Made by a program: the position numbers and the translations under genes. The notes under the pieces are model-generated. The model searched no databases, was not told the origin of the DNA, and worked only from the letters and a program-made list of their open reading frames with translations. Shown piece after piece: positions 58,169 to 64,000 of a stretch of 64,000 bases of DNA (position 1 is the first letter of the stretch; each line of letters starts with the position of its first letter). Source of the DNA: Cellulophaga sp. F20128 (GTDB taxonomy: Bacteria; Bacteroidota; Bacteroidia; Flavobacteriales; Flavobacteriaceae); NCBI RefSeq assembly GCF_023015805.1, contig NZ_JALKBA010000004.1, positions 62,001 through 126,000 on the forward strand, written 5' to 3'.

Positions 58169-59000
58169 AATGCTTAAAGCTGGTTTTTATACTAGTATAC
58201 AAGATTTAGGACGGTTTCACCATAGGAGTCAAGGAATTCCTGTTTCTGGAGCAATGGATTCTTATGCGGTTACCCATTTAAACAAGCTTTTAGAAAATGA
58301 AGAAAATGCGGCGGTCTTAGAAATTACAATTACAGGTCCAACCTTAGAGTTTACGGAAGATACTTATATCGCTTTTGGCGGCGCAGAATTTGATGTTCAA
58401 TTAAACGGAATCCCTGTAAAAGATCATAAAATTCATAAAATTGGGAAAGGCGATGTACTTAGTTATGGAACGCTCATTAAGGGCTACAGAGGTTATTTGG
58501 CTATAAAAGGCGGATTTAAAACAGATGAAATATTGGGTAGTAGATCATGGTTTAAGCCGGTAACAACCAAGGGCTCATTTCTTAAAAATGATAAAATTCC
58601 ATACACCCCAGAAACACTTTTCTCACCTTTACTCAGTGAGGTAACTTTAAAATCGCACTTATTAGATAAAGAATTAACGGTTTATAAGGGCCCCGAATTT
58701 GATCAATTATCAGCGGAACAACAAGGACGCTTATTTTCTAAAGGTTTTACAATAGCAAAAGAAAATAACCGAATGGCATATCAACTCAATGAATTATTAG
58801 AGGCACATCAATTGTCAATGTTAACGTCTGCAACATTACCTGGTACTGTACAACTAACTCCTGCTGGAAAGTTAATCATATTAATGAAAGATGGTCAAAC
58901 TACAGGAGGCTATACTAGAGCTTTGCAATTATCGGAAGAATCCATACATATATTGGCACAAAAGAAAACAGGAGATACCATTACTTTTAAACTAATTTAA
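58161..59000 (+). CDS. pxpC: 5-oxoprolinase subunit C (KipA family)
   Basis: A 279-residue protein of the biotin-dependent carboxyltransferase-like/KipA family. Motifs: AGFYTSIQDLGRFHHRSQGIPVSGAMDSYA, LEITITGPTLEFTEDTYIAFGGAEF, and the C-terminal PAGKLIILMKDGQTTGGYTRALQL. It pairs with PxpB. A second in-frame ATG at 58170 would start the protein 3 residues later, just after the pxpB stop. The ilv leader begins right after it; the -33 box of the ilv promoter lies 14 nt past the stop. Confidence 0.92.
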   Translation: MVKMLKAGFYTSIQDLGRFHHRSQGIPVSGAMDSYAVTHLNKLLENEENAAVLEITITGPTLEFTEDTYIAFGGAEFDVQLNGIPVKDHKIHKIGKGDVLSYGTLIKGYRGYLAIKGGFKTDEILGSRSWFKPVTTKGSFLKNDKIPYTPETLFSPLLSEVTLKSHLLDKELTVYKGPEFDQLSAEQQGRLFSKGFTIAKENNRMAYQLNELLEAHQLSMLTSATLPGTVQLTPAGKLIILMKDGQTTGGYTRALQLSEESIHILAQKKTGDTITFKLI

Positions 59001-59013
59001 GAAATGGTAATGT

Positions 59014-59044
59014 TTTGCATATTTAAATTTTTTAAGTAATATTG
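59014..59044 (+). promoter_or_regulatory. ilvD: Promoter of the ilv leader (TTTG - 19 nt - TAATATTG)
   Basis: TTTG (59014-59017) and TAATATTG (59037-59044; one mismatch to TAnnTTTG) are 19 nt apart. The start would lie near 59049-59050, only 3-4 nt before the leader ATG at 59053, so the leader would be nearly leaderless, as is tolerated in Bacteroidota. Confidence 0.55.
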
Positions 59045-59052
59045 CCATAGCA

Positions 59053-59106
59053 ATGAAGAACAAATTTAATATAATACAAGTCATTCTTACCACTTTCGGG
59101 GGGTGA
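59053..59106 (+). CDS. ilv operon leader peptide
   Basis: A 17-codon reading frame, MKNKFNIIQVILTTFGG, ending TGA at 59104-59106. Positions 7-12 are Ile-Ile-Gln-Val-Ile-Leu, i.e. five of six codons for the three amino acids made by the downstream operon, the hallmark of a ribosome-mediated attenuator. It ends immediately before an alternative RNA pairing that would let a stalled ribosome control the terminator at 59130-59165. It lacks a Shine-Dalgarno sequence, as is normal here. Its size and place are too well fitted to the ilv operon to be chance, in my view. Confidence 0.8.
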   Translation: MKNKFNIIQVILTTFGG

Positions 59107-59141
59107 TACGGTCTTATATTGATTTTAAGAAGCCTGTGTCA
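59104..59141 (+). promoter_or_regulatory. ilv antiterminator (alternative RNA pairing)
   Basis: TGATACGG (59104-59111), which begins at the leader stop codon, can pair with 59134-59141 of the terminator's left arm, six Watson-Crick and two G-U pairs. With a bulge it can be lengthened by TCTT (59112-59115) with AAGA (59127-59130). Forming it takes away 8 of the 13 left-arm bases of the terminator. A ribosome finishing the leader at TGA would cover the 5' strand and force termination; one stalled at the Ile/Val/Leu codons would leave it free. Confidence 0.65.
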
Positions 59142-59165
59142 TATCAAAATGACACAGGCTTTTTT
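59130..59165 (+). terminator. Attenuator terminator upstream of ilvD
   Basis: A perfect 13-bp stem (59130-59142 with 59149-59161), 6-nt loop, and six T (59160-59165). It lies 24 nt after the leader stop and 218 nt before the ilvD ATG. Downstream, 59166-59382, is AT-rich leader with no gene; it holds a TTTGAT-A-ATCAAA palindrome (59238-59250) and a TATATTTG box (59325-59332), which might be a second promoter. Confidence 0.88.
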
Positions 59166-59382
59166 ATTCACTTAAAAAACGATCTAAATATCGCTAAAAA
59201 AAATAGATGGATGTGATATCTTTTATGGGTTTATTTGTTTGATAATCAAATGTTTAATCCATTTTAAAGGAAGTTGAATTTATACAAAAAAACAATGTTA
59301 AAAAAATGAAGAATCTTAAAGAATTATATTTGAATGATATAGTATTTTCAACAGGAATCAAGAATTGCAAGAAATAATATAA

Positions 59383-61059
59383 ATGGAATTAAACAAGTAT
59401 AGTAAGAACGTTACACAAGACCCTACACAACCCGCTGCACAAGCCATGTTGTACGGAATAGGTTTTAAAGATGAAGATTTTAAAAAACCAATTGTTGGAA
59501 TTGCAAGTACTGGTTACGAGGGAAACCCTTGTAATATGCATTTAAATGATTTGGCTTTAGATGTGAAAGCTGGGGTAAACTCCAATGAATCTGTAGGTTT
59601 AATATTTAATACCATTGGTGTTAGTGATGGTATTTCTATGGGAACACCGGGCATGCGTTTTTCTTTACCTTCAAGAGATATTATTGCAGATTCTATGGAA
59701 ACCGTGGTTCAAGGGATGTCTTATGACGGTTTGGTAACTGTTGTGGGTTGTGATAAAAATATGCCTGGTGCGTTAATGGCGATGATTCGTTTAAACAGAC
59801 CTTCAATTTTAGTATATGGAGGAACCATAGCTTCGGGTTGCCATAACGATAGAAAATTAGATATTGTTTCTGCTTTTGAAGCCTGGGGTGAAAAAGTGGC
59901 GGGCACCATGAAAGAGGAGGAATTTGGATGTATTATAAAGAAAGCAATTCCTGGTGCTGGTGCTTGTGGCGGTATGTATACGGCAAACACTATGGCCTCT
60001 GCTATAGAAGCATTAGGTATGTCCTTGCCTTATAATTCTTCTAATCCAGCTGTGGGTAAAGAGAAAAAGGAAGAATCTATAGCTGCTGGAAAGCAAATGT
60101 ATTATTTGCTAGAACACGATATTAAACCTTTAGATATTATTACTAGGAAATCCTTAGAAAATGCCATTCGTTTGGTTACAATAATGGGAGGCTCCACAAA
60201 TGCAGTGCTTCACTTTTTAGCTATCGCTAGGGCTGCTGATATCGATTTTACTTTACAAGATTTTCAACATATTAGTGATACAACACCGTTTATAGCAGAT
60301 TTAAAACCAAGTGGAAAGTATCTAATGGAAGATATTCACCGTATTGGAGGTGTTCCAGCAGTTTTAAAATATTTATTGAAAAATGGAATATTGCATGGAG
60401 ATTGCTTAACAGTAACAGGTAAAACTTTAGCAGAAAATTTAGTGGATGTTCCAGATTTAATTGAAGGTCAGGATGTTATTCGACCCTTAGATAATCCTAT
60501 TAAAGCAACCGGACATTTACGTATGCTCTACGGAAATTTAGCTGAGAATGGTTCTGTGGCTAAAATTACTGGAAAAGAAGGCTTATTATTTAAAGGTACA
60601 GCGAAAGTATTTAATAGTGAATATGATGCCAATGATGGTATTCGCGACGGTAAGGTTAAAAAAGGTGATGTGGTTGTTATTCGCTATGAAGGCCCCAAAG
60701 GGGGACCAGGAATGCCGGAAATGCTAAAACCAACAGCTGCTATTATGGGTGCTGGACTAGGGAAAGAAGTTGCTTTAATTACAGATGGTCGTTTTTCTGG
60801 TGGTACCCACGGATTTGTAGTAGGACATATTTCTCCTGAAGCACAAGATGGTGGAACTATTGCCTTGGTTCAAGATGGGGATATTATCACCATTGATGCA
60901 GAAACAAATGCGATCAATGTAGATGTTACCGATGCCGAACTCGCAAAACGCAAACAAGCTTGGGTTGCCCCAGCATTAAAATTTAAAAAAGGTGTATTGT
61001 ATAAATATGCACGTTCTGTATCATCTGCTTCACAAGGTTGTGTTACAGATGAATTTTAA
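59383..61059 (+). CDS. ilvD: Dihydroxy-acid dehydratase
   Basis: A 558-residue Fe-S enzyme that dehydrates 2,3-dihydroxy-isovalerate and 2,3-dihydroxy-3-methylvalerate, the third step of valine/isoleucine synthesis. The Cys ligands are visible: C50 (GNPCNMHLN), C123 ([11 protein letters not shown], next to the D124/K125 pair) and C195 ([11 protein letters not shown]). The signature GGSTNAVLH and the C-terminal [16 protein letters not shown] are intact. Length is standard for the enzyme. It is the first structural gene of the ilvD-B-N-C operon, preceded by the attenuator. Confidence 0.97.
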
Positions 61060-61149: not shown

Positions 61150-62883
61150 ATGGAGACATTAAAAGAAAGAAAGACTTCAGTAAAAAGCAAGACAACACTA
61201 AAAATTAGTGGGGCTGAAGCAATTATACATTGTTTAGTAGCCGAAGGTGTAGACTTATTATACGGTTACCCAGGTGGGGCTATTATGCCCGTTTACGATG
61301 AGCTTTATAAGTTTCAAGACAAATTAACCCATATTTTAACCCGCCATGAACAAGGGGCTACCCATGCTGCCCAAGGGTATGCAAGGGTAACGGGTAAAGT
61401 AGGAGTGGCCATGGCAACCTCTGGACCTGGTGCCACTAATCTAGTGACAGGTTTGGCAGATGCGCAGATAGATTCTACACCTATGGTGTGTATCACTGGG
61501 CAAGTAACACGTCATTTATTAGGTTCAGATGCCTTTCAAGAAACAGATATTATTGGTATTTCTACACCTGTTACCAAGTGGAATTATCAAGTAACAAGGG
61601 CAGAAGAAATTCCAGAAATATTAGCGAAGGCATTTTATATTGCACGATCTGGACGTCCAGGTCCTGTATTAATAGATATTACTAAAAATGCCCAAATAGA
61701 TGAATTCGATTTTAGTTATACGCCATGTACAGGAGTACGCAGTTATAACCCTTTTCCGAAGCCTGATGTAACCCAAATTGAAGCTGCTGCAGCATTAATA
61801 AACAATGCTAAAAAGCCTTTAATCGTTTTTGGTCAAGGTGTTATTTTAGGAGAAGCCGAGGAACAATTAAAAACATTGGTTGAAAAAGCAGGAATACCAG
61901 CAGCTTGGACAATTTTAGGACTATCCGCATTAGATACAAACCATCCATTAAATGTTGGTATGGTAGGTATGCATGGTAACTATGCTCCCAACATGTTAAC
62001 CAATGAATGTGATGTTTTAATTGCGATTGGGATGCGCTTTGATGATCGTGTTACTGGTAGTTTAGACACCTATGCAAAGCAAGCCAAAATTATTCATTTT
62101 GATATAGATCCTGCTGAAATAAATAAGAACGTAAAGGTAGATGTTGCCGTTCTTGGAAATTCTAAGGAGACGCTGGGGTTAATACTCCCTTTAATTAATA
62201 AAACTGAGCATACTACTTGGCACAACCAATTTAAGGATAAATATAAAATTGAGTTTGATGCTGTTATTAATAAGGATATTCACCCCACCAAGGAAAAGTT
62301 AACAATGGGTGAAGTTATAGAGCAAATCAATATTGCTTCTAATAACAGTGCCGTTATTGTTACAGATGTTGGTCAGCACCAAATGATAGCATGCCGATAT
62401 GCTAAATTCAATCAAAGTAAAAGTAATATTACTTCTGGTGGTTTAGGTACAATGGGTTTTGCCTTACCCGCTGCTATTGGCGCAAAAATGGGAAGAATGG
62501 ATCGAGAAGTAGTTGCTATAATAGGAGATGGAGGCTATCAAATGACTATACAAGAACTGGGTGTCATTTTTCAGCACAAAGTACCCGTTAAAATTGTGGT
62601 TCTCAACAATGATCATCTTGGGATGGTTCGGCAATGGCAAGAATTATTTTTTGAAAAAAGATATGCTTCAACGGTTATGGTAAATCCAGATTTTGTAAAA
62701 ATTGCTGAAGGCTATCATATCAAATCTAAACGAATTAGTGAACGTAGTGAATTGCAATCAACCATTGCAGAAATGATGGCATCTAAGGAGGCATACTTCT
62801 TAGAAGTAAAGGTGGAAAAAGAGGATAATGTATTCCCTATGATTCCATCAGGGGCTTCGGTTTCAGAAGTGCGATTAAAATAA
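61150..62883 (+). CDS. ilvB: Acetolactate synthase large (catalytic) subunit
   Basis: A 577-residue thiamine-diphosphate enzyme that joins pyruvate to pyruvate or 2-oxobutyrate. The N-terminal Pyr domain has GYPGGAIMPVYDELY and the catalytic E67 (RHEQGATHAAQGYARVTGK); the central FAD-binding domain and the C-terminal PP domain follow, with IIGDGGYQMTIQELGVIF giving the ThDP/Mg-binding motif. It starts 90 nt after ilvD and is followed by the small subunit gene 54 nt later. Confidence 0.97.
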   Translation: METLKERKTSVKSKTTLKISGAEAIIHCLVAEGVDLLYGYPGGAIMPVYDELYKFQDKLTHILTRHEQGATHAAQGYARVTGKVGVAMATSGPGATNLVTGLADAQIDSTPMVCITGQVTRHLLGSDAFQETDIIGISTPVTKWNYQVTRAEEIPEILAKAFYIARSGRPGPVLIDITKNAQIDEFDFSYTPCTGVRSYNPFPKPDVTQIEAAAALINNAKKPLIVFGQGVILGEAEEQLKTLVEKAGIPAAWTILGLSALDTNHPLNVGMVGMHGNYAPNMLTNECDVLIAIGMRFDDRVTGSLDTYAKQAKIIHFDIDPAEINKNVKVDVAVLGNSKETLGLILPLINKTEHTTWHNQFKDKYKIEFDAVINKDIHPTKEKLTMGEVIEQINIASNNSAVIVTDVGQHQMIACRYAKFNQSKSNITSGGLGTMGFALPAAIGAKMGRMDREVVAIIGDGGYQMTIQELGVIFQHKVPVKIVVLNNDHLGMVRQWQELFFEKRYASTVMVNPDFVKIAEGYHIKSKRISERSELQSTIAEMMASKEAYFLEVKVEKEDNVFPMIPSGASVSEVRLK

Positions 62884-62937
62884 ATATTAATTAAATAAAT
62901 CCGATTTTTCACCTTGAGATTCGAGGTTCGGAGCAAT

Positions 62938-63471
62938 ATGAAAATGGAAAATAATTGGTATACCATATCGGTTTATTCTGAAAACAACGTTGGCTTGTTA
63001 AACAGAATATCAGGCATATTTTTAAAGCGACATATAAATATAGAAGGACTTAATGTTTCTAAATCAGAAATTGATGGGGTTTCTAAATTTACTATTGTCA
63101 TTCATACAACAGAACAATGGGTGCAAAATATTGTGGGTCAAATAGAAAAGCAAATAGAGGTTATTAAAGCTTTTTATCATCCAGACGATGAAATAATTTA
63201 CCAAGAATCTGCTTTGTTTAAAATCTCTTCAGATTTGTTGTTTGATGAACGCCAAATACAAAACATTATAAAAGACAACAATTCACAGATTGTAACCGTG
63301 GCACGCGATTTCTTTGTTTTATCCAAATCAGGAAAACGAGATGAGATTGATAAAATGCACAGCGAGCTAGAACCTTATGGTATTATGCAATTTGTTAGGT
63401 CTGGTAGAATAGCAGTAAGTAAAGCAGAAATGCGCATCAGTAGTTTATTAGAAGAGTTTCAACATAATTAA
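62938..63471 (+). CDS. ilvN: Acetolactate synthase small (regulatory) subunit
   Basis: A 177-residue regulatory subunit. The N-terminal ACT domain (WYTISVYSENNVGLLNRISGIFLKRHINIEGLNV) binds valine for feedback inhibition of the large subunit. A frame extension upstream starts at TTG 62914; ATG 62938 or 62944 is preferred. It sits between ilvB and ilvC in the usual order. Confidence 0.92.
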   Translation: MKMENNWYTISVYSENNVGLLNRISGIFLKRHINIEGLNVSKSEIDGVSKFTIVIHTTEQWVQNIVGQIEKQIEVIKAFYHPDDEIIYQESALFKISSDLLFDERQIQNIIKDNNSQIVTVARDFFVLSKSGKRDEIDKMHSELEPYGIMQFVRSGRIAVSKAEMRISSLLEEFQHN

Positions 63472-63515: not shown

Positions 63516-64000
63516 ATGTCAAATTATTTTAATACGTTATCACTTAGAGATCAATTAACCCAATTGGGAAAATGTAGATTTATGGATTCTTCGGAATTCT
63601 CAGAAGGTGTAACGGCCTTAAAAGGTAAAAAAATAGTAATTATAGGTTGTGGAGCACAAGGTTTAAACCAAGGTTTAAATATGAGAGATTCTGGTTTGGA
63701 TATTTCATTTACTTTAAGAGCTGCTGCAATTCAAGAAAAAAGAGATTCTTATAAAAATGCAACAGAAAACGGATTTACGGTTGGCACCTATGAAGAATTA
63801 GTGCCAAGTGCAGATGTTGTAATCAACTTAACGCCAGATAAGCAGCATACTAATGTGGTAACAACAGTAATGCCATTAATGAAAAAAGGGGCAACCCTTT
63901 CGTATTCTCATGGTTTTAATATTGTGGAAGAAGGGATGCAGATTCGTGAGGATATAACCGTTATTATGGTTGCACCTAAGTGTCCTGGTTCTGAAGTTAG
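63516..64000 (+). CDS. ilvC: Ketol-acid reductoisomerase, 5' part (cut by the window end)
   Basis: The first 161 codons of ilvC. The protein starts [20 protein letters not shown] and has [17 protein letters not shown] (NAD(P)-binding GxGxxG) and [11 protein letters not shown], which identify KARI; the R..R-type loop after the second strand ([19 protein letters not shown]) is the longer class II form. The product joins the second step of valine/isoleucine synthesis. The rest of the gene is outside the window. Confidence 0.95.

Follow-up and report, generated by a model that had tools for sequence, protein, structure and literature searches.

The region upstream of the ilv operon in Cellulophaga sp. 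F20128 contains what we take, with a probability of about 0.92, to be a classical ribosome-mediated attenuator, which would admit RNA polymerase from the promoter P1 to ilvD-B-N-C-A whenever charged tRNA for Ile or Val runs short. Direct reading of the DNA and comparison across species together show a leader frame, control codons, and three mutually exclusive predicted hairpins with co-varying arms. These point convincingly to a complete attenuator of 1:2, 2:3, and 3:4 pairings, whose mechanism, as judged from sequence, would be ordinary leader-peptide attenuation. The case is one of covariation rather than of resemblance: all the sequence parts of translation-coupled attenuation are present and maintained in a phylum without Shine-Dalgarno initiation and with another promoter code.

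The ilv locus and its predicted RNA structures

The locus comes from assembly GCF_023015805.1 (GTDB lineage Bacteria; Bacteroidota; Bacteroidia; Flavobacteriales; Flavobacteriaceae), contig NZ_JALKBA010000004.1, positions 62,001-126,000 of the forward strand. This whole stretch of 64,000 nt is the window, and coordinates below are positions in it, position 1 being its first letter. The region studied, read directly from the sequence, extends from the end of a pxpC-like gene at 59000, the last of the upstream pxpABC-like genes and on the same strand as ilvD, to the start of ilvD at 59383. Its features and those of the operon are as follows.

59014-59044, + strand: promoter P1, with TTTG at 59014-59017 (-33-like) and TAATATTG at 59037-59044 (-7 box)
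59053-59106, + strand: leader ORF encoding MKNKFNIIQVILTTFGG, ATG at 59053, stop TGA at 59104-59106, 17 codons
59066-59122, + strand: 1:2 hairpin (protector), 59066-59074 with 59114-59122 and 59080-59091 with 59098-59107, from the MFE fold
59103-59142, + strand: 2:3 antiterminator, 14 bp, 59103-59111 with 59134-59142 and 59112-59116 with 59126-59130
59127-59165, + strand: 3:4 intrinsic terminator, 59127-59142 with 59149-59164, loop 59143-59148, six T at 59160-59165
59325-59332, + strand: predicted promoter P2, perfect -7 box TATATTTG, expected +1 at about 59337, downstream of the terminator
59383-61059, + strand: ilvD, dihydroxy-acid dehydratase (TIGR00110, 753 bits, cut-off 618), the first gene under the predicted regulation
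61150-62883, + strand: ilvB, acetolactate synthase large subunit (TIGR00118, 720 bits, cut-off 538)
62914-63471, + strand: ilvN, acetolactate synthase small subunit (TIGR00119, 103 bits, cut-off 57)
63516-64000, + strand, continuing past the window: ilvC, ketol-acid reductoisomerase (NF003557, 941 bits)
2029-3312 of L136, after ilvC beyond the window end: ilvA (TIGR02079, 620 bits)

The coordinates of ilvN are those of the longest frame, and an internal ATG is probably the true start. Taken together, ilvD-B-N-C-A cover the common Ile/Val path and the Ile entry step. The leu genes are separate from the ilv operon, on the other strand, and a Leu leader looked for before leuC in the window genome was not seen. 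The gene in the leuA position (L136, 7622-9136, minus strand) has a citramalate synthase model as its best match at 674 bits, below the cut-off of 950, hinting at either a threonine-independent isoleucine route or a divergent LeuA.

The -7 box of P1 matches five of the six fixed positions of the Bacteroidota TAnnTTTG motif, with a spacer of 19, and its -33 part is poorly conserved among related loci. By analogy with F. psychrophilum, in which TAnnTTTG occupies -12 to -5 (PMC9723704), the P1 +1 would fall at about 59049. Between this promoter and the operon lies the short frame expected of a leader-peptide attenuator, with a run of end-product codons, ATA ATA CAA GTC ATT CTT (I I Q V I L), at codons 7-12 (59071-59088). 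A generic consensus scan listed neither P1 nor the terminator; this is no evidence against them because the scan models sigma-70 hexamers and a T run that begins after the stem.

The segment 59045-59170 folds at -38.7 kcal/mol (z = -5.3, none of 200 shuffles as good), and its MFE fold consists of two hairpins. One is 1:2, formed by the leader codons and the sequence around and after the stop, in which the control codons are paired with the 5' strand of the antiterminator, as a protector would have them. The other is the 3:4 terminator, a perfect stem of up to 16 pairs ahead of the first structural gene. With the downstream terminator arm left off (59101-59145), the antiterminator forms, with 9+5 pairs and -12.4 kcal/mol (z = -2.7, equalled or bettered by 3 of 200 shuffles). 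Its 5' strand begins at the leader stop codon, where a ribosome at the stop would mask it, and its formation would exclude the terminator. The fold of 59101-59165 reaches z = -6.0, and 59049-59145 taken as a whole folds no better than shuffles.

An earlier, sequence-only reading of this DNA had described a promoter-like pair at 59014-59044, a 17-codon leader at 59053-59106 with I I Q V I L, a 13-bp terminator with six T at 59130-59165, and an antiterminator pairing 59104-59111 with 59134-59141 and 59112-59115 with 59127-59130. Promoter and leader are borne out by direct reading, the terminator stem proves to be perfect over more pairs than described, and folding recovers the antiterminator with each helix one pair longer. 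The 1:2 hairpin, the second promoter at 59325-59332, and ilvA after ilvC go beyond that description.

From these parts a course of events may be proposed. The first ribosome would probably load on the ilv leader in a near-leaderless fashion, the frame beginning about 4 nt from the expected 5' end of the mRNA. When Ile and Val are ample, a ribosome at the stop (59104) would sit over the antiterminator's 5' strand, and transcription would end at the terminator, near 59165. When Ile or Val is short, the ribosome would stall on codons 7-12 and open the 1:2 hairpin, leaving 59103-59116 free to pair with 59126-59142, and transcription would go on. On an untranslated leader, the control codons would pair with strand 2 and the terminator would form, making "off" the default. 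P2, lying past the terminator, would provide a basal supply independent of the attenuator.

Conservation, covariation, and a predicted second promoter

We collected ilvD and its upstream DNA for 80 named loci, for the genus and its relatives, and for one genome per genus of the family, and searched automatically upstream of ilvD for a short ORF rich in Ile, Val, and Leu followed by a terminator. An Ile/Val-rich leader and a terminator precede ilvD in 61 of 130 genera (one or two each); the reverse strand gives 5 of 130 and shuffled sequence none of 130. Among the congeners with ilvD, 15 of 17 have both, 14 of them by the automatic search and one more with a GTG-started leader. The other two, L127 and L128, are without leader and terminator upstream of ilvD and have kept the second promoter and ilvD. 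Beyond the genus, Ile/Val-rich leaders are present at about 100 further loci. Comparison of the related genomes upholds the sequence-only reading: they retain the leader frame with its control codons, the terminator, and arms that compensate each other, and only those 2 of the 17 congeners are without the element. This comparison shows the predicted attenuator to be real and widespread in Flavobacteriaceae.

Downstream of the terminator, the window and 16 congeners share a TAnnTTTG that is located at -57 to -59 relative to ilvD and differs among them at its two free positions. The 17th congener has it too, and across the family it occurs at -75 to -40 from ilvD in 34% of 130 genera versus 3% of shuffled sequences. 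Because this conserved P2 lies past the terminator, the attenuator probably governs only the share of ilvD-B-N-C-A transcription that comes from P1. One could go further and hold that the attenuator is real but minor, with P2 carrying most ilv transcription and the attenuated P1 being a decaying remnant: P2 has a perfect box that the whole genus retains, P1 one of 5/6, the control run of the window is weaker than that of its nearest relatives (NIIIIVLVIIIS), and two congeners have lost the attenuator. We consider this unlikely, however, as the arms, the stop position, and the terminator of the window are intact and paired, and 15 of 17 congeners keep the element. The stretch from the terminator to P2 (59166-59324) contains conserved words (TTGAATATG-like, TTGAATTTA, and GTTAAAA) across the genus and its neighbours.

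The arms also argue for the ribosome-mediated attenuator. Among 27 sequences that share the arm type of the window, the 2:3 cells are 96.7% paired, and sliding the partner lowers this to 52% or less; these 27 sequences show no two-sided changes in 2:3, and their variation consists of one-sided G-U changes. The 3:4 terminator is paired in 99.6% of the cells of the comparison, with two-sided changes at two pairs. Because the window's arm type alone gave no two-sided 2:3 change, an arm-swap permutation test was run across arm types. In 66 leaders of several arm types, 2:3 pairing between own arms has a mean of -10.5 kcal/mol versus -7.27 (sd 0.32) between permuted ones, a value reached in 0 of 20,000 permutations, which ignore kinship between species. 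The ungapped helix score of 2:3 likewise gave 0 of 20,000 when arms were swapped, and so did the 1:2 duplex, with a mean of -12.6 for own arms versus -9.75 (sd 0.29) for arms swapped between loci. The two-sided changes in 2:3 come from comparing more distant arm types, in which both strands are completely replaced; wholly changed arm pairs include TGATACGG/CTGTGTCA, GGAATGGT/GCCATTCC, AAAGGGAT/ATCCCTTT, and TGATGGGA/TCTCATCA.

Such covariation bears directly on a rival explanation, in which the hairpin does no more than end transcription of the pxpABC-like genes upstream and the short frame is a product of chance. A terminator is expectable at this place, where a gene on the same strand has just ended. 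From species to species, however, the arms of both the antiterminator and the 1:2 hairpin change in step with the terminator; many genera retain the element next to ilvD; and an equivalent arrangement, with fitting codons, recurs before hisG, trpE, and pheA. All of this makes the rival explanation very improbable. Stopping read-through from the upstream genes may still be a side effect of the ilv terminator.

Sister leaders and control codons

Three further leaders with terminators are found in the window genome: MRNNNTHHHFLTCYQAS with HHH before hisG (L257), MKTITNIWWWNNLRQTS with WWW before trpE (L260), and MNTRYFWNGFYFYFFKRG with FYFYFF before pheA (L258). Each of the three leader-terminator combinations is present in all 18 genus genomes searched, the window genome included, and in the neighbouring genus G001. 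They are a strong internal control for the predicted attenuator, since each pathway has residues of its own in the leader. The least probable reading of all is that a branched-chain amino acid is sensed directly, by a riboswitch or a protein-bound attenuator, with the peptide frame incidental. An intrinsic terminator with alternative structures would suit it equally and no Rfam model covers the element, but the genera have no ligand-binding sequence or fold in common. They have instead conserved a frame rich in Ile/Val and arms that are complementary to each other, and before his, trp, and pheA the control codons are those for H, W, and F/Y. At the gathering threshold no Rfam family matches the element; among the amino-acid leader families the best hit is Thr_leader (RF00506), at 25 bits versus a gathering threshold of 55, which has a general layout like that of the window's element and does not include it as a member.

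The content of the leaders suggests what the attenuator would sense. In 118 leaders Ile makes up 30% and Val 14% of the residues (44% together), as opposed to 7% for Leu, and the sensed supply is therefore likely to be mainly that of Ile and Val. The last Ile/Val codon in these 118 leaders lies at a median of 3 codons before the leader stop, and a ribosome stalled there would be expected to open 1:2 and leave strand 2 free. The earlier proposal that ilvD-B-N-C is controlled by Ile/Val/Leu supply is supported by comparison in its general form, but it narrows to mainly Ile and Val and probably to the P1 share alone.

The choice among synonymous codons is also skewed. GTC accounts for 47% of the Val codons in leaders versus 6% in the long ORFs of the window, that is, it is about eight times commoner, with a p-value of about 1e-38 that is only indicative, the leaders being from many species and the ORFs from one. 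As many as 67 of the 79 leader GTC codons fall in predicted pairs, mostly in the predicted 1:2 stem, and hence the synonymous choice seems to serve the hairpin. The control codons seem to have been selected on two counts, tRNA sensing and RNA pairing.

Probable near-leaderless starts, known systems, and tandem attenuators

Given the placement of TAnnTTTG in F. psychrophilum (PMC9723704) and in F. johnsoniae, where it lies 4-5 nt from the start (PMC6847099), the 5' UTR of the ilv leader is expected to be about 4 nt. This nearly leaderless start, noticed from the window alone as unusual, recurs across the family: in 71% of 106 leaders the ATG is preceded, at a distance of 3-11 nt, by a -7 box with at least 5 of 6 positions, versus 16% after shuffling, and the box-to-ATG distance has peaks at 4-5 and 8-10 nt. 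Within the genus, this distance is 7 in all hisG leaders, 5-8 in trpE leaders, and mostly 16-19 in pheA leaders. The his and trp leaders of the window genome also appear to be nearly leaderless. Near-leaderless loading would suit a phylum in which Shine-Dalgarno sites play no part. Leaderless attenuator leaders are known among Actinobacteria, from Streptomyces lividans (PMC8079986), and have been discussed for C. glutamicum (PMC11857589). The near-leaderless leader is a variation on known practice.

Enteric leaders carry runs of Ile, Val, and Leu codons and are longer than the 17 codons of the window's leader. The ilvGMEDA, ilvBN, and leu attenuators of enteric bacteria, listed as leader-peptide attenuation in PMC1183508, resemble the window's element in their end-product control codons, competing hairpins, intrinsic terminator, and default termination. 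Unlike them, the window has a Bacteroidota -7 promoter, no Shine-Dalgarno sequence, an expected 5' UTR of about 4 nt, and a leader of only 17 codons for Ile and Val, with no recognisable sequence relation. The C. glutamicum ilvBNC leader and S. lividans ilvL (PMC11857589, PMC8079986) share with it a short, leaderless branched-chain leader and competing hairpins, but they belong to another phylum and differ in arms and leader sequence, and the window's operon starts with ilvD.

F. psychrophilum belongs to the same family as the window genome. Its transcriptome (PMC9723704) gave strong clues to leader-peptide attenuation before amino-acid operons, with structured 5' elements at pheA and hisG; the main text does not mention an ilv element and is silent on covariation, control codons, and tandem pairs. 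To these clues, already known for the family, the present analysis adds the covariation evidence, the second promoter, the short-5' UTR pattern, and the ordered tandem pairs. The Flavobacterium ilv leaders found here differ from that of the window: their expected 5' UTR is about 12-18 nt, and their stop codon lies beyond strand 2. Among the open-access papers searched, we found none on an ilv attenuator in Bacteroidota. Some attenuators in Bacteroidetes/Chlorobi were reportedly predicted by Vitreschak et al. in FEMS Microbiol Lett in 2004.

Two attenuators stand in series before ilvD in 10 of the 61 positive genera, and every time a CCTTCC-like one (A) comes first and a CTGTATC-type one (B) second (L163, L183, L189, L191, L193, L196, L203, L204, L207, and L100); Gaetbulibacter L010 and Lutibacter L032 are named cases of this order. 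Only the second kind occurs in the window and its genus. Lineages with both attenuators are interspersed on the IlvD tree with lineages that have A or B alone, which fits an ancestral A+B pair with repeated losses, the alternative being repeated gain. We advance only tentatively, at somewhat less than even odds, the wider proposal that the ilv, his, and trp leaders of Flavobacteriaceae are near-leaderless (expected 5' UTR of about 0-6 nt) and that an A-then-B series before an attenuator-free promoter was ancestral for ilv, the window's genus keeping only B. If this is true, attenuators in series would multiply, giving a steeper response than a single one. Ready test objects are offered by the start codons almost at the mRNA end, by the control codons with their apparent dual role, and by a gene that nature has provided with one attenuator in some genomes and with two in others. 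In L016 (Aquimarina) and L037 (an Ignavibacteriae MAG), the paired ilv attenuators have different arm types and do not follow the A-then-B order.
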